This document shows, in pieces, positions 622-10,456 of a stretch of DNA of 64,000 nt. The DNA lies in contig NZ_QKNY01000009.1 of NCBI RefSeq assembly GCF_003605575.1, positions 62,001-126,000 on the forward strand, in the 5' to 3' direction. The notes beneath the pieces are model-generated. The model did not search any database. It saw only the letters and a program-made list of their open reading frames with translations, and had not been told where the DNA came from. This DNA is from Halonotius aquaticus. Its GTDB lineage: Archaea; Halobacteriota; Halobacteria; Halobacteriales; Haloferacaceae. Within the stretch, counting starts at the first letter, position 1; every line of letters begins with the position of its first letter. Made by a program: the position numbers and the translations under genes.

Positions 622-900
622 TCAGGTCAACTCTGCGCGAAGCCGTTCCGATTCCCGCTTGATCGCTCGCCGCCGCTCGGCCGCTTCGGCCTCGCGTTCG
701 CGCATCTCGTCGGCGTTATCGTAGTAGTACGCGAGCGCGTCGAACACCGCCGCGCCGTCGAGATCGTACTCGGCGGCGACCGCAAATGGATCCTCGTCGC
801 CGTCGATCACCCGACGTTTGATGTCGAGAACGGAGATTCGGGTTCCCTCAATGCACGGATCACCTGACCGAATATCGGAATCCGTGACGATTGATACCAT
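622..900 (-). CDS. DUF433 domain protein (antitoxin-like)
   Basis: A 92-residue protein starting MVSIVTDSDI. The core SGDPCIEGTRISVLDI followed by DPFAVAAEYDLDGAAVFDALAYY matches DUF433, a small helical DNA-binding-type domain often found as the VapB-like antitoxin half of PIN or DUF5615 toxin pairs. The C-terminus is a charged helix rich in Arg and Glu. The ATG at 898-900 is chosen because a TATA-like stretch lies at 921-929 on the minus strand, which implies a leaderless message. The in-frame TTG at 921 falls inside that box. No toxin partner is adjacent, so it may be an orphan. Family fair to good; function uncertain. Confidence 0.75.
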   Translation of the reverse strand: MVSIVTDSDIRSGDPCIEGTRISVLDIKRRVIDGDEDPFAVAAEYDLDGAAVFDALAYYYDNADEMREREAEAAERRRAIKRESERLRAELT

Positions 901-1003: not shown

Positions 1004-1111
1004 ATGACAAAGGAGGAAATCAAGAAGACAGCCAAGAAGTGCCCGGATTGTGGTTCAATGGTGTTGAAACAGAGTTCAAAATGCGACTGTGGACACGATT
1101 TCAATGACTGA
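1004..1111 (+). CDS. tiny zinc-ribbon protein, 35 aa (first of a coupled pair)
   Basis: A 35-residue ORF, MTKEEIKKTAKK followed by CPDCGS and then KCDCGHDFND. The four cysteines sit as C-x2-C and C-x-C, so it could form one zinc ribbon. Small CPxCG-type zinc proteins are abundant in haloarchaea and mostly uncharacterised. A TATA-like AATATTTATGAA lies about 25-30 nt upstream, which fits a leaderless start at this ATG. The stop overlaps the next ORF's start (ATGACTGA), suggesting translational coupling. The patch is visibly AT-rich and Lys-rich compared with the neighbouring halophilic genes, a hint of transfer. Function unknown. Confidence 0.7.
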   Translation: MTKEEIKKTAKKCPDCGSMVLKQSSKCDCGHDFND

Positions 1112-1223
1112 CGACTCAAAAAAGGAAGCACTCAGGCAATGGAAGTGCCCAGATTGTGGTTCAAGTAACCTGACTCAACAGGGCAAGAAAAAATGTAGCA
1201 ACTGTGGATACAAAGTTGAGTGA
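1104..1223 (+). CDS. tiny zinc-ribbon protein, 39 aa (second of the pair)
   Basis: A 39-residue ORF, MTDDSKKEALRQWK followed by CPDCGSSNL and then KKKCSNCGYKVE. Two C-x2-C pairs form a canonical zinc-ribbon knuckle set. It shares the KCPDCGS block and the basic N-terminal helix with the 35-aa protein just upstream, so the two look like diverged tandem copies. Its ATG overlaps the upstream stop, and its own TGA (1221-1223) shares one base with the ATG of the downstream membrane-protein gene, so all three are probably co-translated. It could bind nucleic acid or protein; nothing shows which. Confidence 0.75.
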   Translation: MTDDSKKEALRQWKCPDCGSSNLTQQGKKKCSNCGYKVE

Positions 1224-1720
1224 TGTTTTCTCTCTTTCTGGAAATCATCGCACAGTGGTTTCTTTTGATTTTATTCTTGGTTGAATTAGGTGCGAAAGTA
1301 TACTTGAATAAGGAACATCAGATGGCTACCGTGAGAGATCAATCTACGTATGATGAAATTTCTCAGCGTCAACGGGGGACTGCACTCTCAGTTGCAAGTC
1401 TTGTATTCGCAGGGATTACGCTGCTCCTATCTCAGAACGCACCTCAGTATGTTGAACAGATTGAGGTCTTCGTCGTCGCATTCGGGTTTTTACTGATTGC
1501 TGCGTTCGCCCACGAAATTACCCTTACACGTCGTATTATGCTAACAATTCAGGAGATGGCGCTGGAGTACGGTCTCCTGATGCTAGGATTCGGAGTCTAT
1601 CTCCTGATCAGTGAAATTGTTGAGGGTGCGAGTTTTGTGGCACTCGGTGTTTTCTCTGTAGTTATGATTATCCGATTCGCAAGCACTCCCGGAGAACTGC
1701 AGGCGCACCAAAACACATGA
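1223..1720 (+). CDS. polytopic membrane protein coupled to zinc-ribbon genes
   Basis: A 165-residue protein starting MFSLFLEIIA (a GTG three bases earlier would add one Met). Hydrophobic segments near residues 1-25, 53-70, 80-98, 112-132 and 135-153 suggest about five membrane helices. A charged loop between the first two carries KEHQMATVRDQSTYDEISQR. The ATG shares its A with the stop of the preceding zinc-ribbon gene, so the three-gene set behaves as one operon. The codon use and base composition are AT-rich compared with flanking ileS and thermosome genes. I do not recognise the family. The arrangement (two soluble zinc ribbons plus a membrane protein) is the only functional clue. Confidence 0.75.
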   Translation: MFSLFLEIIAQWFLLILFLVELGAKVYLNKEHQMATVRDQSTYDEISQRQRGTALSVASLVFAGITLLLSQNAPQYVEQIEVFVVAFGFLLIAAFAHEITLTRRIMLTIQEMALEYGLLMLGFGVYLLISEIVEGASFVALGVFSVVMIIRFASTPGELQAHQNT

Positions 1721-1910: not shown

Positions 1911-3605
1911 TCACATTGCGCCGCCCATGCCACCCATACCGCCCATGCCGCCCATGCCGCCGCCCATGCCGCCGCCACCGGGCATGTCTGGTCCGTCATC
2001 GTCGTCGTCGCCGACCTGGCCACCGGAGAGGTCGCCAGCGGCGATGACATCGTCGATGCGGAGGATCATCACAGCGGCTTCGGTTGCGGATTCGATCGCC
2101 TGCGTTTTGACTCGAAGCGGCTCGACGACGCCCTCGTTCTCCATGTCGATCACGTTGCCCGAGTAGGCGTCCAGCCCGGCGGTGAAGTCGCCGCCGTCGT
2201 GCTGGGAGCGCAGCGAGACGAGGGAATCAATCGAGTCCAGCCCGGCGTTCTCGGCGAGCGTGCGCGGGATAACTTCGAGTGCGTCGGCGAATGCCTCAAC
2301 AGCCAGCTGTTCGCGGCCCCCGACGGAGTCGGCGAAGTCACGAAGCTGGAGTGCGAGTTCGGTTTCGGGCGCGCCGCCACCGGGGAGCACCTTGCCGTCT
2401 TCGAGCGTGGCGCGAACGACACCGAGGGAGTCCTCGATTGCGCGTTCGACCTCGTCGACGACGTGGTCGGTGCTGCCGCGGACAACGAGGGTGACGCTTT
2501 TCGCGTCCTCGACGTCCTCGACGAAGAGCCGCTCGTCGCCACCGATGTCCTTCTGGGTGACGCTGCCGGCGAAGCCGAGGTCGTCCTCGGTCAGGTCGTC
2601 AAGGTTGGAGACGACGCGGCCACCGGTCGCACGAGCGAGTGCTTTGAGGTCGGAGTTCTTCGCGCGGCGGGCGGCGATGATGCCCTCCTGAGCGAGGTAG
2701 TGCTGGGCCATGTCGTCGATGCCGTCGCCGACGAAGACGACGTCGACACCGGCGTCGGCGAGCTGGTCGACCATCTCCTTGAGCTGTTCCTCTTCCTGGT
2801 CGAGGAATTCCTGAAGCTGGGAGGGGTCGGTAACGTTGACCTCGGCGTCGATCTCGGTCTCTTTGACCTCGAAGGCACCGTCGAACAGCGCGATGTTGGC
2901 GTCCTCGGCGAAGTACGGCATGTTCTCGTCGACGCGCTCTTTGTCGACGATGACGCCCTCGACGAGTTCGGACTCGTCGATGGAGCCGCCGACGACAGTC
3001 TCGACGTCGACGTTGTCGAGGTCGATTCCGTCATCGTCCTCGACAGCGAGTACGGCGTCGACGACGAGTTCGGCGAGGTGATCTTTCGCGCCTTCCGCGC
3101 CCTTGCCGGTCATCGCCGTGGTGGCGATCTCGACGAGGGTGTCGCGGTCGTCCGCCGAGACCTCGATGGCCTCGGTTTCGAGGATGTCTTTGGCCTTCTC
3201 GGCGGCCTCTCGGTACCCCTGGGCGATCGTCGTCGCGTGAATCTCGGAGTCGATCAGCTCTTCGGCCTGATCGAGGAGTTCACCCGCAACGACGACAGCG
3301 GAGGTGGTGCCGTCGCCAACCTCGTTTTCCTGGGTCTCGCTGACCTCGACGATCATGTTGGCTGCCGGGTGGTCGATGTCCATCTCCTTGAGGATCGTGA
3401 CGCCGTCGTTGGTGACGACGACCGAGCCCCCGGAGTCGACGAGCATCTTGTCCATGCCCTTCGGTCCGAGTGTGGTGCGTACGGACTCGGCGACCGCCTT
3501 CCCGGCGGTGATGTTCATCGACTGGGCGTCTTTCCCGGAGGTGCGCTGGCTGTCCTCCGAGAGGACGATCATCGGCTGGTTACCCATCCGCTGTTGTTGA
3601 GACAT
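1911..3605 (-). CDS. ths: thermosome subunit (group II chaperonin)
   Basis: ATP-driven cytosolic group II chaperonin that folds proteins in a double ring. The 564-residue length is normal. Visible signatures are [19 protein letters not shown] near the N-terminus, [34 protein letters not shown] (nucleotide-binding GDGTT), and GGGAPE with ENAGLD in the C-terminal equatorial domain. The C-terminus is the Gly-Gly-Met-rich tail typical of haloarchaeal thermosomes. The ATG at 3603-3605 is chosen because a strong Shine-Dalgarno GGAGGTGA sits just upstream; the GTG at 3611 overlaps that site. It is divergent from the Cdc48-type ATPase gene. Confidence 0.95.
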
Positions 3606-3607
3606 AG

Positions 3608-3642
3608 TCACCTCCGGATTGTTTGTGATTCTATATAAACCC
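3608..3642 (-). promoter_or_regulatory. thermosome promoter: TATA box and Shine-Dalgarno
   Basis: Reading the minus strand, GTTTATATAG (about 3631-3640) is a clear archaeal TATA box, followed by GGAGGTGA directly before the thermosome ATG at 3605. The TATA-to-start distance predicts a very short leader, so whether the Shine-Dalgarno is fully included in the transcript is unclear. No obvious heat-shock palindrome was recognised. Confidence 0.6.
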
Positions 3643-3899
3643 TTCGTATAGGATTACTGAGCGGGGCGCTGTCTGACAAATTCAAGCATGTGAGTTACTA
3701 CCAACCACGTGTTTTATATACTGCATCGAGCGGCCACGGCTCCCACCGGTCGGTGCTGGCGGAGGCCAGTGGTGACACCGACAGAGCGCAGGCGGGGCAG
3801 CAAGCACCCACCTATTTGACTCGGGTCGGCGTAGGGCTCTCATACACGTGGCCGTCGTGTCGCGCCGGGACGAACGCGACAGGATGGCGGTTCCAACCG

Positions 3900-6437
3900 A
3901 TGAAACTACGCGTCAAACCACTCGACAGGGAGACTCCGGGCAACGGGATCGCAACGATCGACCGCGAGTCGATGGCGACACTCGGGGTCAACAACGGCGA
4001 TTTTGTCACGATCAGCCACGGGAATCGGACGGCTGTTCTCCGGGCGCGACTCAGCCAAAACCGGGATCGACAGCGCGGGATCATCGGCATCGACGGCCAA
4101 ACACGGAAAACCCTCGGCACCCGCATCGACCAACTCGTCGAGGTCTCCTCGGCCGATGTGGAGCCAGCCGCCCGACTGGCGGTTGTCATCCCCGAGGGAC
4201 TCCGCATCCAAGGTGATATCGCCGCCTACATCCACGACAAACTCGCCAACCGGGCGGTCAGCCCGGGCAAAACGGTGTCGGTGACGATGGGGTTTCGCTC
4301 GCTGAACGGGAGTTCGAACCGCCGGATCCCGGTGAAGATCGTCGGCAGCGAGCCCGGCGGCACCGTCGTCGTCACCGACTCAACCACGATCGATATCGTT
4401 GAGGAGCCGACCGACCGAGACAGCGAGGAGACGGAGCCAGCCGACGCCGACCCGCCGGGGATCACCTACGAGGACGTTGGCGGCCTCGCTGCCGAACTCG
4501 ATGCGGTACGGGAGATGATCGAGTTGCCGATGCGCCACCCCGAGCTGTTTCAGGCCCTTGGGATCGAGCCGCCACAGGGCGTCTTGCTGCATGGCCCACC
4601 CGGCACCGGCAAGACCCTCATCGCGAAGGCCGTCGCCAACGAGATCGACGCGGATTTCCAGACCATCTCCGGGCCGGAGATCATGTCGAAATACTACGGC
4701 GAAAGCGAGGAGCGACTGCGGGAGGTCTTTGAGACCGCCGAAAGCGAGGAGCCCGCGATCGTCTTCATCGACGAGATCGACTCGATCGCGCCGAAACGTG
4801 GCGACACTGAGGGCAGCGTCGAACACCGCGTGGTCGCCCAACTGCTCTCGCTGATGGACGGGCTGGGCGATCACGGCCAGATCACCGTCATCGGCACCAC
4901 AAACCGCATCGACGCCGTCGACCCCGCCCTACGGCGTGGCGGCCGCTTCGACCGGGAGATCGAGGTCGGCGCGCCGGATGCCAGCGGGCGCGGGGAGATC
5001 CTCCGGATTCACACCCGCGAGATGCCGCTAGCCGACGATATCGATCTCGACAGCTACGCCAGCAACACCCATGGCTTCGTCGGCGCGGATCTCGAAAGCG
5101 TCGTGCGGGAAGCCGGAATGAACGCCCTCCGGCGTGTGCGGCCGACGCTCGATCTTGAGGCGGAGACGATCGACGCCGAGACGCTCGAACAGTTGGCCGT
5201 GACCGCGGCGGACTTCCGGCGAGCCCTCCGGGAGGTTGAGCCATCAGCACTCCGAGAGGTCTTTGTCGAAGCCCCGGATGTGACCTGGGACGATGTCGGC
5301 GGCCTCACGGAAACGAAAACCAGGCTCCAGGAGGCGATCCAGTGGCCACTCGCCTACCCAGCGGCCTACCAGCAGGTCGACCTCCAGTCGCCGACCGGCA
5401 TTCTCCTGCATGGGCCACCCGGCACCGGCAAGACACTGCTGGCGAAGGCCGTTGCCAACGAAGCCGACTCCAATTTCATCTCGGTGAAAGGGCCGGAACT
5501 GTTCGACAAGTATGTTGGCGAATCCGAGAAAGGCGTCCGGGAGATCTTTGCGAAGGCACGGGAGAACGCCCCGACAGTCGTCTTTTTCGATGAGATCGAC
5601 GCCATCGCAGCCCAACGCGGCAGCGGGAGCGACTCCCAGGTCAGCGAGCGCGTCGTCAGTCAACTGCTGACCGAACTCGATGGGCTCGAAGCCCTCGAAG
5701 AGGTGGTCGTGATCGCCGCGACAAATCGACCGGAACTCCTCGATGACGCCCTCACCCGGGCTGGCCGAATCGAAGAACAGATCGCGGTCGAGGAACCCGA
5801 CGAAGCGGCCAGACGCGAGATTCTGTCGATCCACACGCGCGACCGTCCGGTCGCCGGCGATGTCGACCTCGACGCGTTGGCAGCAGCGACCGAGGGCTTC
5901 GTCGGCGCGGAGGTGGCAGCGCTCTGTCGAACCGCGGCGACCGAGGCCGTGCGGGCCCACGTCCATGCCCGCAATGAGGGGCGACCGGCAGTCGTCGAGG
6001 AGATGCGGCTCACACGACCAGGATTTGAAGCCGCACTCAACGAGGTCAGCGACGAAGAACGAACGATCAACTGGCCCGCCCGCGACGACGACGCGACCGC
6101 TGTGACCGAGGCCGACAGCGAGGCCACAGCCGGCAACACCGCCGACGAAGCGACCGACAGCGCGGCTGGTGGCGACACAGACGACACCGCGGTCGCTGAC
6201 GACGTACCCACCGACGGAGCTGACGAAACACGCGAGGCTGATCCCGCTGATGCGGCGGTTCCACCGGAATCGGGTGTCGAAAGCGGCGGAAGCACGGTCG
6301 ACGCTGACGAGAGCCGTGAGGAGTCAGCTACGGACGCAGAGACACCGGCTGCTGTCAACGCCGAGACGACAGAGAGCGAAGCCGAACAGAAAACGGACAG
6401 CGACAGCGGCGACACAAACGAAGACGAATCGACCTGA
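3900..6437 (+). CDS. cdc48: Cdc48/VAT-type AAA+ ATPase with acidic C-terminal tail
   Basis: Hexameric unfoldase feeding substrates to the proteasome and remodelling complexes. The protein is 845 residues. The N domain ([20 protein letters not shown], double-psi barrel) is followed by two AAA modules, each introduced by YEDVGGL or WDDVGGL and each with Walker A GPPGTGKT and Walker B FIDEIDSI or FFDEIDAI. Arg-finger blocks [10 protein letters not shown] and [10 protein letters not shown] are present. Roughly the last 120 residues are a low-complexity acidic tail. The ATG at 3900 matches the usual VAT N-terminus. The frame stays open to 3690, but that stretch does not look like a folded domain. 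A TATA-like TTTTATATAC at about 3713-3722 would give a long leader. Confidence 0.95.
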
Positions 6438-6446
6438 CGCCGCCGA

Positions 6447-6980
6447 TCAGGCGAGATCCGGGCCGCGTGTCAACTCGCGGTGTTTCTCCTCAAGGAACGA
6501 GTAGACCGCGCCGTGAGGTGAGCCATCGAGAATCATCCCGACCGCCCGCCGAACCGCCTCAACCTCCTCAGATTCGCCGATAATCCCAACCGTCGAACCG
6601 TAGATGACGACATCGGCACCCGATAGCTCTTCCATAAGCTCCCGTGTACGGCCATCCTCGCCGATGATTCGGCCTTTCTGGCGGCGAAGGTCGTTGTCGT
6701 TGCGTGTCTGCTCGGAGAGATCGATCAGCTCGAAGCGTCGCATATCGCCATCCAGCAGCGACAACGCGGTTTCGGGCTTGAAGCCCCGGCCGATCGCCTT
6801 GACGATATCCGGGGCGACAAGCGCGGTCACCGGATCGCCAACGGATTCGATGGCGACCGAGCCGGACTCGGAGTCGATATCCAGCCGCACCTCCGCCCGG
6901 GATTCGATCTCCCGCATCATCTCGCCACCCTCGCCGATGAGGACGCCGATCCGATCCTGCGGGACTTTGACGTGTTGCAT
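6447..6980 (-). CDS. KH-domain rRNA-processing protein (Dim2/Pno1-like)
   Basis: A 177-residue RNA-binding protein with two KH domains. The first has VPQDRIGVLIGEGGEMMREI (GxGG loop), and the second has KGRIIGEDGRTRELMEELSG. The C-terminal SPHGAVYSFLEEKHRE is characteristic of the archaeal homologue of Dim2/Pno1, which binds the 3' end of 16S rRNA during small-subunit maturation and cooperates with Nob1 and Rio kinase. It lies on the same strand directly after Rio1 and aIF1A, a functionally coherent order. It converges with the Cdc48-type gene with a 9-base gap. Confidence 0.92.
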   Translation of the reverse strand: MQHVKVPQDRIGVLIGEGGEMMREIESRAEVRLDIDSESGSVAIESVGDPVTALVAPDIVKAIGRGFKPETALSLLDGDMRRFELIDLSEQTRNDNDLRRQKGRIIGEDGRTRELMEELSGADVVIYGSTVGIIGESEEVEAVRRAVGMILDGSPHGAVYSFLEEKHRELTRGPDLA

Positions 6981-7045
6981 ACGGTTGCTACCCCGCGGAT
7001 CTGTTTAAGCGTGTTCCTCGGCCCACGCGAGGCCACACATAGGGC

Positions 7046-7909
7046 TCACCACCGGACTCGATCGTCGTCACCGGCGATGTACTCAAAGAGGTCGTCGCCC
7101 GAGGTCTCCAGCCCTTGCCGGCTGAAGAAGGCGGCGACGTTTTCACAATCCCGGCGAAGCAGGTCGCCGGCGTTTGGGTGATGGATGGTGACGGCTTGCC
7201 CGAGATCAATGATCACGAGTTCGCCGTCGTGGATGATCATGTTGTACTCCGAGAGATCACCGTGAATCAGCCCCGCCGTGTGGAGTCGGCGCATGTACTC
7301 GCGGACGACCTCGTAAGCTGTTTCGGGGTTTTCAACGTTGACCTCAGCGAGCCGACGGGCGCGATCCTCGACCAGCCCCACCAGTTCCATCACGAGGACG
7401 TTGCGCTCGACGGCGATCGGATTGGGGACACGGACGCCGGCCTCCCGAGCGCGGCGGAGATTGGCGAACTCCTTGCGCACCCACGCGAGGACGACCTGTT
7501 TCTTGTTGTTGCCGATCCCCTCGAAACGGGGGTCGCCCTCCAGATACGTCCGCATCTGCTGGAACGGCGAGGCGTTGATCCGAAAGATCTTGACCGCGAC
7601 TTCGGTGTCGTCGGCGCCGAGGGCCTCGTAGACGTTGGCCTCCTTGCCGGTCGAGATCGGTCCGCCGAAGGCATCGATGTGGCCGTCGGCGATGAGTTTG
7701 TACAGCGCACCGAAGGTCGCATCGTCGAAAACCGACTGTTCGACCTTGAACTGCTCGGCGTCTTTGATCTGCTCCTCGAACTGCTCGAACTCCCGGTCGC
7801 GCTCGCGGGCGATCCGGTCGGCCTCGGTGTCGGTGACATCGATCTCTTCCCACTCGTCGCCGATGGCGGCCTCGGGATCGGTATCGAGCAGTCCGTACTC
7901 GTCGGTCAT
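7046..7909 (-). CDS. rio1: RIO1-type serine/threonine protein kinase/ATPase
   Basis: Atypical kinase of late 30S ribosome biogenesis. The protein is 287 residues with an acidic N-terminal extension, then the RIO1 core: flexible P-loop STGKEANVYEA, catalytic Lys in VAVKIFRI, hinge VLVMELVG, catalytic loop LIHGDLSEYNMI (HGDxSxxN) and metal-binding IIDLGQAV in place of DFG. The central KEFANLRRAREAGVRVPNPI is family-typical. It sits between aIF1A and the Dim2-like gene with short gaps, probably one transcription unit devoted to the small subunit. Confidence 0.96.
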   Translation of the reverse strand: MTDEYGLLDTDPEAAIGDEWEEIDVTDTEADRIARERDREFEQFEEQIKDAEQFKVEQSVFDDATFGALYKLIADGHIDAFGGPISTGKEANVYEALGADDTEVAVKIFRINASPFQQMRTYLEGDPRFEGIGNNKKQVVLAWVRKEFANLRRAREAGVRVPNPIAVERNVLVMELVGLVEDRARRLAEVNVENPETAYEVVREYMRRLHTAGLIHGDLSEYNMIIHDGELVIIDLGQAVTIHHPNAGDLLRRDCENVAAFFSRQGLETSGDDLFEYIAGDDDRVRW

Positions 7910-8296: not shown

Positions 8297-9403
8297 CTAC
8301 GCACACCCGCCAGCCGTCGATTCGACGGTTTCGGGGGCGTCGTCATCGACCACCCCTTTTGTCAGCGTATAACAGATATCGCCGGTGACCGCTGGATCGG
8401 AGCCATCCGGTACTGTGAACGATGTCTCCGGGCTGTCGTAGTCGCTGTCGTTGTAGACCCAGACCGTCGTCGCGTCGGCGATGCGATCGTTGTACCGGTT
8501 CCGCACGTCGACTGGGAACGGCCAATCATCGTCAGCGGTGGCGTTTCGGAGGTAGGTCGGCGACGGCTCGGTAGCGTTCGTCCCGATATCGATCTTGTGA
8601 ACCGTCAGCTCGTAGGTTTCTGAGCTGTCGAGGGTGATGGTGGCAACGTCGCCAGCGACGGCGACAGAATCGACAGTCGACTGTCCATCGAGGATTGTTT
8701 CGCGCCACGTCTCGCCGGATAGGTTGGTCGGAAGCCGCAGGCGGATCGGATCGCTGCTGGCTTCGATGTCGATCGTCGTCGAGTCGGTGACGCGGTCGGG
8801 AACGACGGATTCGGTAGCGACGCCCGACGCCGTCAACTCACCGTCAACAACGGTCAGCGTGATCGCCGTCTCGTCAACGACCGGTTGGCGATTTGCTGCG
8901 ATCTCGATTCGGCTGTTCGAGTCGTACCGGGCAGCGAGTACGCCGTGTTCAAGCCGGTAGCGCGGCGCGGCGTCGAGTTCCCGGTAGGCTGGCTCGTAGG
9001 TGATCGCCCGTGTCGGGTAGCTCCGTGTCGTCCCGTTCCAGTAGGTGTCAAACGCTTTGTCGTCGCCGACGGCTTCGGCGTTATCGATGCTGAGCGTCGC
9101 CGGGTCAGTCGTACGGAGCGTGCCGGCTCGGGGTGGCGGATAGACGAACAGCAGCCGGTCGTCGTACTCGGCCCCGAGATCGAGCGTCGTCGGCTGCGGG
9201 CGGCCGGTCACGCTGGTCTCGAAAACTGCTGTCTCAAGGCCGACCAGCTGATCGGCCACTCGCTGGCTGTGATCGAGTTCCACGCGGCTGATATCCGCCG
9301 GAACGAGCTGTGCTTGGGCGGTCGTCAGCGCGATCAGGAGGAAGCCGAACAGGAGGATCGCGCCGATCTGCAGGGACTGGCCGCGACTGTCGGAGAAACG
9401 CAT
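8297..9403 (-). CDS. pilin-like surface protein of unknown function
   Basis: A 368-residue protein starting MRFSDSRGQSLQIGAILLFG. The RG-Q junction followed by a hydrophobic helix (residues 9-30) resembles a prepilin signal cleaved by PibD, so it may be a type IV pilin-like or membrane-anchored extracellular protein. The rest is acidic, Thr/Asp-rich and beta-strand-like, with several N-x-S/T sites and two Cys near the C-terminus. Haloarchaea carry many such pilin-like DUF proteins. There is no operon link to the neighbouring tyrS beyond shared strand. Function not assignable. Confidence 0.65.
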   Translation of the reverse strand: MRFSDSRGQSLQIGAILLFGFLLIALTTAQAQLVPADISRVELDHSQRVADQLVGLETAVFETSVTGRPQPTTLDLGAEYDDRLLFVYPPPRAGTLRTTDPATLSIDNAEAVGDDKAFDTYWNGTTRSYPTRAITYEPAYRELDAAPRYRLEHGVLAARYDSNSRIEIAANRQPVVDETAITLTVVDGELTASGVATESVVPDRVTDSTTIDIEASSDPIRLRLPTNLSGETWRETILDGQSTVDSVAVAGDVATITLDSSETYELTVHKIDIGTNATEPSPTYLRNATADDDWPFPVDVRNRYNDRIADATTVWVYNDSDYDSPETSFTVPDGSDPAVTGDICYTLTKGVVDDDAPETVESTAGGCA

Positions 9404-9469
9404 TGCGCTGCGTGGTCTCGGTATCCGACAAAAAGTATCGGCTGTGAGGGAGCGTCGCGTCGATGGAGA

Positions 9470-10456
9470 TTAGGCGTTCAATTGCTCGCGGCCGGGTTCG
9501 ATGAGCGCGTTGAGTTCCGCGGCCAGCGCAGATTTCGCGTCCATCGGGTGGAGCTCGCCGGATTCGAGGTCGGCTTCCAGCGTCTCGTAGCCGTCGTATT
9601 CGAGGTCGCCGCCGTACTCCTCGGGCCGTTCGACGACGACCGTATTGACCCGCGGGAAGACGTGGTACTGGAACAACTGGAGGACAGGGTTCTCACGCTC
9701 GTTGCCGTCGCCGTCAGGATCGGGATCGGCCGTGGGCGGACAGTAGGCGTCGTTGATTTTTGCCTCAATGTCGTCCTCGCTGTCCTCCATCGAGATCGTC
9801 ACGCCGGAACTGGAGGCCATCTTGCCGACGCCGCTTGAGAGATCGGCGATGATCGGCGTGTGCAGGGCGGGCCGCACATCGTAGTCGAGTTCCGGCAGCG
9901 TTTCGCGGGCCAGCATGTGAACCTTCCGCTGGTCAAGGCCGCCGACCGCGAGATCGACATCGAGGTATTCGATATCGAGCGCCTGCATGAGCGGGTAGAC
10001 CATCTGTGAGACCTTCGCGTGGTCGCCGCGGGCGATCTCGGCCATCGCGCGTTTGGCCCGCGAGAGCGTCGTTTCGAGCTCAGCAGCGTGGAGGTCGAGG
10101 GTGTACTCCTCGTCGAGTTGGAACTCCGAGCCGAGGACGAACTCGGTTTGGCTCTCGTCGAGGCCGTAGGCGATGAACTGCTCTTGCATCCGGTCGGCGG
10201 TCTCCCGGATTTCCGCGAAGGTGCCCTTGTCGTTGAGGTAGGCGTGCACGTCAGCCAAGAGAACGGTCACATCGAAGCCGGCCTCTTGGAGGTCGATCAG
10301 TTTGGTGGCCGTCAGCATGTGGCCGATGTGGAGAACGCCGGAGGGTTCGTAGCCGACATACGCGCGCTTGCCCTCGGGGTCGTCGGCCAACTCCTCTAGT
10401 TCCTCCTCGGTGACCACCTCGGCGGCGTTCCGGGTGATCAACTCGTAGGCGTCCAT
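9470..10456 (-). CDS. tyrS: tyrosyl-tRNA synthetase
   Basis: Attaches tyrosine to tRNA-Tyr. The 328-residue length and architecture are archaeal. Visible are YVGYEPSGVLHIGHML (HIGH motif, residues 43-46), VLLADVHAYLNDKGT, tyrosine-pocket region YPLMQALDIEYLDVDLAVGG with DQRK, and KMASSSG as the KMSKS equivalent. The start ATG 10454-10456 gives a normal N-terminus. It is followed on the same strand by the pilin-like gene, with no evidence of functional linkage. Confidence 0.95.
   Translation of the reverse strand: MDAYELITRNAAEVVTEEELEELADDPEGKRAYVGYEPSGVLHIGHMLTATKLIDLQEAGFDVTVLLADVHAYLNDKGTFAEIRETADRMQEQFIAYGLDESQTEFVLGSEFQLDEEYTLDLHAAELETTLSRAKRAMAEIARGDHAKVSQMVYPLMQALDIEYLDVDLAVGGLDQRKVHMLARETLPELDYDVRPALHTPIIADLSSGVGKMASSSGVTISMEDSEDDIEAKINDAYCPPTADPDPDGDGNERENPVLQLFQYHVFPRVNTVVVERPEEYGGDLEYDGYETLEADLESGELHPMDAKSALAAELNALIEPGREQLNA

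Follow-up and report, generated by a model that had tools for sequence, protein, structure and literature searches.

The window, by which we mean the whole 64,000-nucleotide stretch of Halonotius aquaticus DNA analysed here, carries a compact three-gene islet. ORF1 (1004–1111, + strand) is the first of two mini-genes and encodes a 35-aa zinc ribbon (CPDCG...CDCGH); ORF2 (1104–1223, +) encodes a 39-aa zinc ribbon (RQWKCPDCG...CSNCG); and MP (1223–1720, +) encodes a 165-aa membrane protein of an unnamed family, predicted to have five helices. ORF1 has orthologues in Natrinema limicola (locus L054) and Natrinema thermotolerans (L059), and ORF2 has orthologues in five genomes. The two mini-genes overlap by 8 nt (ATGACTGA, 1104–1111), a stretch that includes the TGA of ORF1 (1109–1111), and the TGA of ORF2 (1221–1223) overlaps the ATG of MP by a single base (1223). 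Both mini-proteins contain KCPDCGS, and repeat comparison finds beneath it a 23-nt direct repeat that is 96% identical between the copy in ORF1, at its first zinc knuckle (1036–1058, +), and the copy in ORF2 (1142–1164, +). The three ORFs, both overlaps and the common motif were thus confirmed where the original prediction had placed them. The leaderless-type TATA that it had proposed for the head of the islet also holds up: the TATA-like element TATTTAT (973–979, +) has its centre about 28 nt upstream of the first ATG, at the spacing expected of a leaderless transcript, and ATTTAT is found roughly 30–35 nt upstream of the ORF1 start in three relatives.

The islet lies between ileS and a thermosome gene. 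The stretch from 954 to 1760 (no strand assigned) is absent from the congener G001, the flanks of which align at about 91% identity; across congeners, the flanks are 85–94% identical and the islet is absent. In its place, G001 has about 400 unrelated AT-rich bases. Other sequence fills the slot in G003 (about 1.7 kb, with a 191-aa gene among others) and in G004 (about 2.8 kb, with a similar 191-aa gene and a histidine kinase). Because the congener flanks match while the content between them differs, the ileS–thermosome intergenic slot (398–1910) is a variable insertion spot in the genus. No insertion-marking direct repeats were found flanking the islet. A DUF433 (antitoxin-like) gene lies at the edge of the slot (622–900, minus strand), with no obvious toxin partner adjoining it. 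The islet had been described as an AT-rich patch among GC-rich genes, and its GC content is indeed 44.9%, compared with 62.5% for the window. However, the slot itself accounts for part of the low GC: in G001 it has 43% GC without any islet. With such an AT-rich empty slot, low GC by itself would not prove acquisition.

Zinc-finger ORFs and their membrane-protein partner

At each of the 16 loci counted for the MP family, MP is directly preceded by a small zinc-finger ORF, whereas the same position upstream of other genes, in the same and control regions, is occupied by a zinc-finger ORF in about 2 of 229 cases (Fisher p about 3e-23). The spacing is close: from the last zinc-finger stop to the MP start, the distance is −4 to +6 nt at most loci, and larger gaps (up to +29 nt) occur at loci with an uncertain MP start. 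The strict coupling originally proposed therefore stands as conserved close spacing, but not as a general overlap, because gaps of 2–3 nt separate the genes in the three closest relatives with both mini-genes. Two claims about the islet are well supported by these data: that the three genes work together, given the pairing at 16 of 16 loci, and that they were acquired together, given the same pairing and the absence of the islet from the same slot in congeners.

The zinc-finger content of the unit varies. There is one RQW ribbon in G139, and two ribbons in the window's order in N. limicola, N. thermotolerans and Natrialba chahannaoensis, the genomes in which the three-gene order has so far been recovered outside the window; in the N. 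chahannaoensis assembly, the ORF1 homologue (L055:7730–7846) is frameshifted, by decay or sequencing error. Four ribbons accompany an MP fused to a rhomboid domain in Halomicroarcula rubra; multi-ribbon ORFs are present in Natrinema gari, Natronoglomus and G366; a single double ribbon is present in G774 and G613; and arrays of two to five Cx4C...Cx2H mini-proteins are present in G188, G236, G027 and G291 and on plasmids. The closely related loci L042 and L045 have five and two Cx4C...Cx2H copies, respectively, and copy number therefore changes fast. Across 392 genomes, these mini-proteins were found only beside MP, with the remaining matches weak and inside proteins of around 1,100 aa. The latter (L065–L069) are haloarchaeal and DUF499-like by eye, and have a Cx4C...Cx2H finger resembling those of the arrays; the similarity is weak, and we took them to be unrelated. 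Mini-ORFs are absent from the gene tables of the L059 and L060 records, so annotation-based surveys would miss the arrays.

Relatives of MP were found in around 12 of 392 sampled Halobacteriales genomes by protein and profile searches, in three further genomes by family-wide searches and, at E about 1e-14 to 1e-16, in two genomes outside the order by a phylum-wide search. A scan of genome contigs with the single MP sequence found no relative, whereas an alignment-based scan did, adding N. limicola, N. chahannaoensis, H. rubra, N. gari and Natronoglomus mannanivorans as hosts. One family member is carried by a megaplasmid of N. thermotolerans, and 100% identical MPs (L042, L043 and L060) are encoded on plasmids of around 148 kb from Natronomonas marina (NZ_CP101155.1) and Halorarius halobius (NZ_CP101163.1), which reflects either recent transfer or a culture mix-up. 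G138 and G686 were left out of the locus count, their matches being partial or weak and without zinc-finger ORFs. The MP of G613 (L119) has one in-frame TGA, again through decay or sequencing error. The family comprises two main subfamilies that differ in finger chemistry and are homologous (hhalign 96.4%, E 1.2e-9, 160 columns). A viral origin is without support, because scans of viral contigs and a phage collection gave no relative of MP.

Both mini-proteins fall within the class of small CPxCG zinc-finger proteins, which are shorter than 100 aa and have two paired Cys/His patterns 7–40 aa apart, at least one of them CPxCG-like (PMC2253796). ORF2 has CPDCG and CSNCG; ORF1 has CPDCG and CDCGH, the second as C-x3-H only, and the L059 orthologue has CKCG at that position. 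Neither reached the cut-off of any HVO equivalog model. Haloferax volcanii has 49 predicted C(P)XCG zinc-finger proteins of less than 70 aa, and the majority of those tested bind zinc, although several do not (PMC11241148). Small haloarchaeal CPxCG proteins are regulators or stress and lifestyle factors (PMC2253796, PMC6562870, PMC10716476, PMC11241148). Two surveys searched for operons, tandem copies and tandem arrays mention none of them.

The islet had been thought to contain a tandem zinc-ribbon duplication. We searched 512 Cys-motif ORFs, drawn from all retrieved loci, with a profile built from the ORF2 orthologues. The profile's best match outside its own members was the double ribbon of G613 (E 6e-7), followed by other MP-associated mini-proteins, including ORF1 and its orthologues. 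In the double form, the second ribbon has RNW or RNM before CPxC, where ORF2 has RQW, and the ORF1 type (KK-CPxC) and ORF2 type (RQW-CPxC) are position-specific across genomes. The best interpretation of ORF1 and ORF2 is therefore as position-specific relatives of the halves of an old double ribbon, a form present outside the Halobacteriales, and we dropped a simple recent duplication. The 23-nt identity between them may have come from gene conversion.

Substitutions in ORF2 and MP are rich in third-position changes, with dN/dS of about 0.06–0.2 in pairs with unsaturated dS; third-position differences dominate in ORF1 too, for which few pairs were usable. These patterns show selection at the protein level, which for the small ORFs takes the place of ribosome profiling. 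A chance cluster of ORFs without joint function is accordingly so improbable that we reject it: AT-rich patches commonly contain small ORFs, and the slot is such a patch even without the islet, but the chance reading is contradicted by the pairing (16 of 16 loci, with a baseline of about 1%), the recurring gene order and the protein-level selection.

Predicted structure of the membrane protein

A profile or structure search had been suggested as a route to the identity of MP. Such searches delineated an unnamed family and its relatives, but matched nothing catalogued: MP had no significant match in Pfam or NCBIfam, and the protein encoded at 1223–1717 matched no family in PADLOC-DB 2.0.0 at E ≤ 0.01. 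When the MP profile was compared with sequences of solved structures, the sole match, with a subunit of succinate dehydrogenase (E 0.27), was at chance level, and a fold search of BFVD returned nothing significant.

The AlphaFold2 model of MP has five helices (pLDDT 82.7, pTM 0.80), of which helices 2–5 best match chains of Orai (Foldseek E 0.26, probability up to 0.99; VIA Z 10.9 over 125 residues). For a second, divergent MP (pLDDT 67), Orai was again top by VIA-align (Z 10.2 over 143 residues), with a Foldseek E for Orai above 4. Orai is therefore the top match for both models by VIA-align, but by Foldseek only for the better model, and for helix bundles a VIA Z below about 13 may mean little, so that Z values of 10–11 and Foldseek E values of at least 0.26 are in the range of unrelated bundles. 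NINJ1 and the plant immune channel WeiTsing stand lower in the list of structural matches. A comparison by hhalign of MP with a profile of human ORAI1 and Drosophila Orai gave a probability of 0.2%, that is, no similarity. We also noticed an R-x-x-A-L-x-x-A/G resemblance to Orai TM1, which was set aside because it is not kept across the MP family. The predicted Orai resemblance is a lead only, and may be just a shared helix arrangement.

The H. rubra MP (L056:7986–9212) is fused to a rhomboid domain that scores above the Pfam cut-off and has GxSG and H motifs by eye. One might therefore propose that the unit processes membrane proteins, with MP as a scaffold presenting substrates to a rhomboid protease and the zinc fingers as adaptors. 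We consider this very improbable: the fusion occurs in one member only, and no rhomboid gene was seen beside other MPs.

Genomic neighbourhoods and a candidate defence role

We scanned the neighbours of MP at nine loci and found defence-type genes at seven of them: a Dsr1-like gene (L055), a type IIG restriction enzyme and an HKD-SNF2 helicase (L058), a PLD nuclease (L057), a TIR gene on a plasmid (L060), a DUF1156 methylase with DUF499 and HNH genes (L032), a HamB-like helicase with an HNH gene (L099), and GmrSD with an integrase (L039). Mobile-element genes were a DUF1424 Rep (L032), the integrase (L039) and a TraC/TraG-like ATPase (L097). At E 1e-5, 12 of 19 neighbours had a PADLOC match, compared with 1 of 20 proteins taken as controls from elsewhere in these genomes (p about 1e-4), a comparison biased by the choice of large neighbours. 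The mad8 match at L097 was discounted as a defence gene, the protein being the TraC/TraG-like ATPase; without this match, p is about 4e-4. At L055, a 1,540-aa protein (2959–7581, minus strand) without a Pfam family matches PADLOC Dsr1 with its C-terminal half (E 7e-36). Directly downstream of MP at L058 is a 293-aa gene (8645–9526) that matches no Pfam family and, by eye, contains a Fic-like motif, and a 259-aa gene with no assigned family occupies the same position at L057.

The proposal of a membrane-linked signalling or defence unit draws its support only from this neighbourhood evidence, which is guilt by association. The enrichment is true of the MP family but not of the window copy, which lies among core genes with only the DUF433 gene beside it, and two loci in another order adjoin metabolic genes. 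The places where defence genes accumulate also attract toxin–antitoxin and other mobile genes.

The unit is a conserved, selected and mobile two-part module with variable zinc-finger content. Because it recurs at 16 archaeal loci, often beside antiviral genes, it is probably an undescribed archaeal membrane-effector module and not a chance cluster. The reading that we tentatively prefer, and that may well be correct, is a mobile defence-type module of two components, in which cytosolic zinc-finger proteins control MP as a membrane effector; we infer both this control and the role in defence. The first component would be one or more small cytosolic zinc-finger proteins from closely spaced mini-ORFs, and the second the predicted five-helix MP. 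The fingers would detect a signal related to infection, or attach to a partner of viral or cellular origin; they would then switch MP, probably through docking to it from the cytosol. Residues R51, T102, R104, Q110 and E111 of MP are invariant in the window's subfamily and would be cytosolic under positive-inside topology, forming a candidate docking face. Once opened or oligomerised, MP would perturb the membrane and halt the production of virus, in the manner of membrane effectors from other defence systems. Changes in the number or kind of fingers could change recognition while the membrane effector is kept. A bolder immune version is doubtful: tandem arrays of minimal zinc-finger proteins would be interchangeable recognition elements serving a single Orai-like membrane channel, and this channel would disturb or kill cells that are infected.

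Two further readings compete with a defence-type module. The unit might signal or regulate outside defence, with the fingers acting as Brz-like regulators or as zinc or redox sensors, and with tethering to MP controlling their activity. In haloarchaea, CPxCG mini-proteins have established roles in regulation and as stress or lifestyle factors (PMC2253796, PMC6562870), and the copy in the window, like the two from another order, has housekeeping genes around it. Yet a housekeeping regulator would not be expected to occur in only a few percent of genomes, to be carried on plasmids or to adjoin defence and mobile genes, as this unit does, and we consider this reading unlikely, if worth keeping in mind. 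We are also sceptical of a toxin–antitoxin-like addiction module that keeps plasmids or islands in place, in which MP would be a membrane toxin neutralised by co-translated zinc-finger proteins. Consistent with it are the translational coupling between a membrane protein and the small genes that precede it, carriage on plasmids and islands, patchy spread and a variable slot in congeners, and the arrays could be stacked antitoxins. However, one to several ribbons of two chemistries alongside a constant MP fold would be unusual for an antidote, and MP is larger than membrane toxins typically are.

Significance and comparison with known systems

Term searches of the literature found no paper on a zinc-finger/MP module. 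One class of small zinc-finger proteins has a fixed membrane partner. To our knowledge, the partners of small C(P)XCG zinc-finger proteins have mostly not been identified, and the fixed partner therefore gives a direct handle on the function of such proteins. If the defence reading is true, the unit adds to the membrane-effector systems of archaea one in which duplicating a gene of around 110 bases extends the recognition part.

Compared with Orai (CRAC) channels, predicted helices 2–5 of MP align with the four TM helices of Orai, of which TM1 lines the pore, but MP has an extra N-terminal helix, no sequence-profile similarity and no obvious conserved acidic filter residue. Kinship with rhomboid proteases is confined to the H. 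rubra fusion (L056), and by Pfam the window MP has no rhomboid domain. MP units lie beside restriction, TIR, Hachiman-like, Hma-like and GmrSD defence genes. Unlike membrane-effector defence systems of, for example, the CBASS or Thoeris type, the unit has no PADLOC model for its membrane protein and no cyclase, TIR, SAVED or ATPase as a constant part; it resembles them in combining, within one operon, a soluble component with a multi-pass membrane protein. The mini-proteins resemble haloarchaeal CPxCG proteins such as Brz, HVO_2753 and HVO_0758 (PMC2253796, PMC11241148, PMC10716476) in their length of less than 70 aa, their paired Cys motifs, their one-domain ribbons and their frequent lack of annotation, but, unlike those proteins, they are tied to one membrane-protein family and arranged in arrays.
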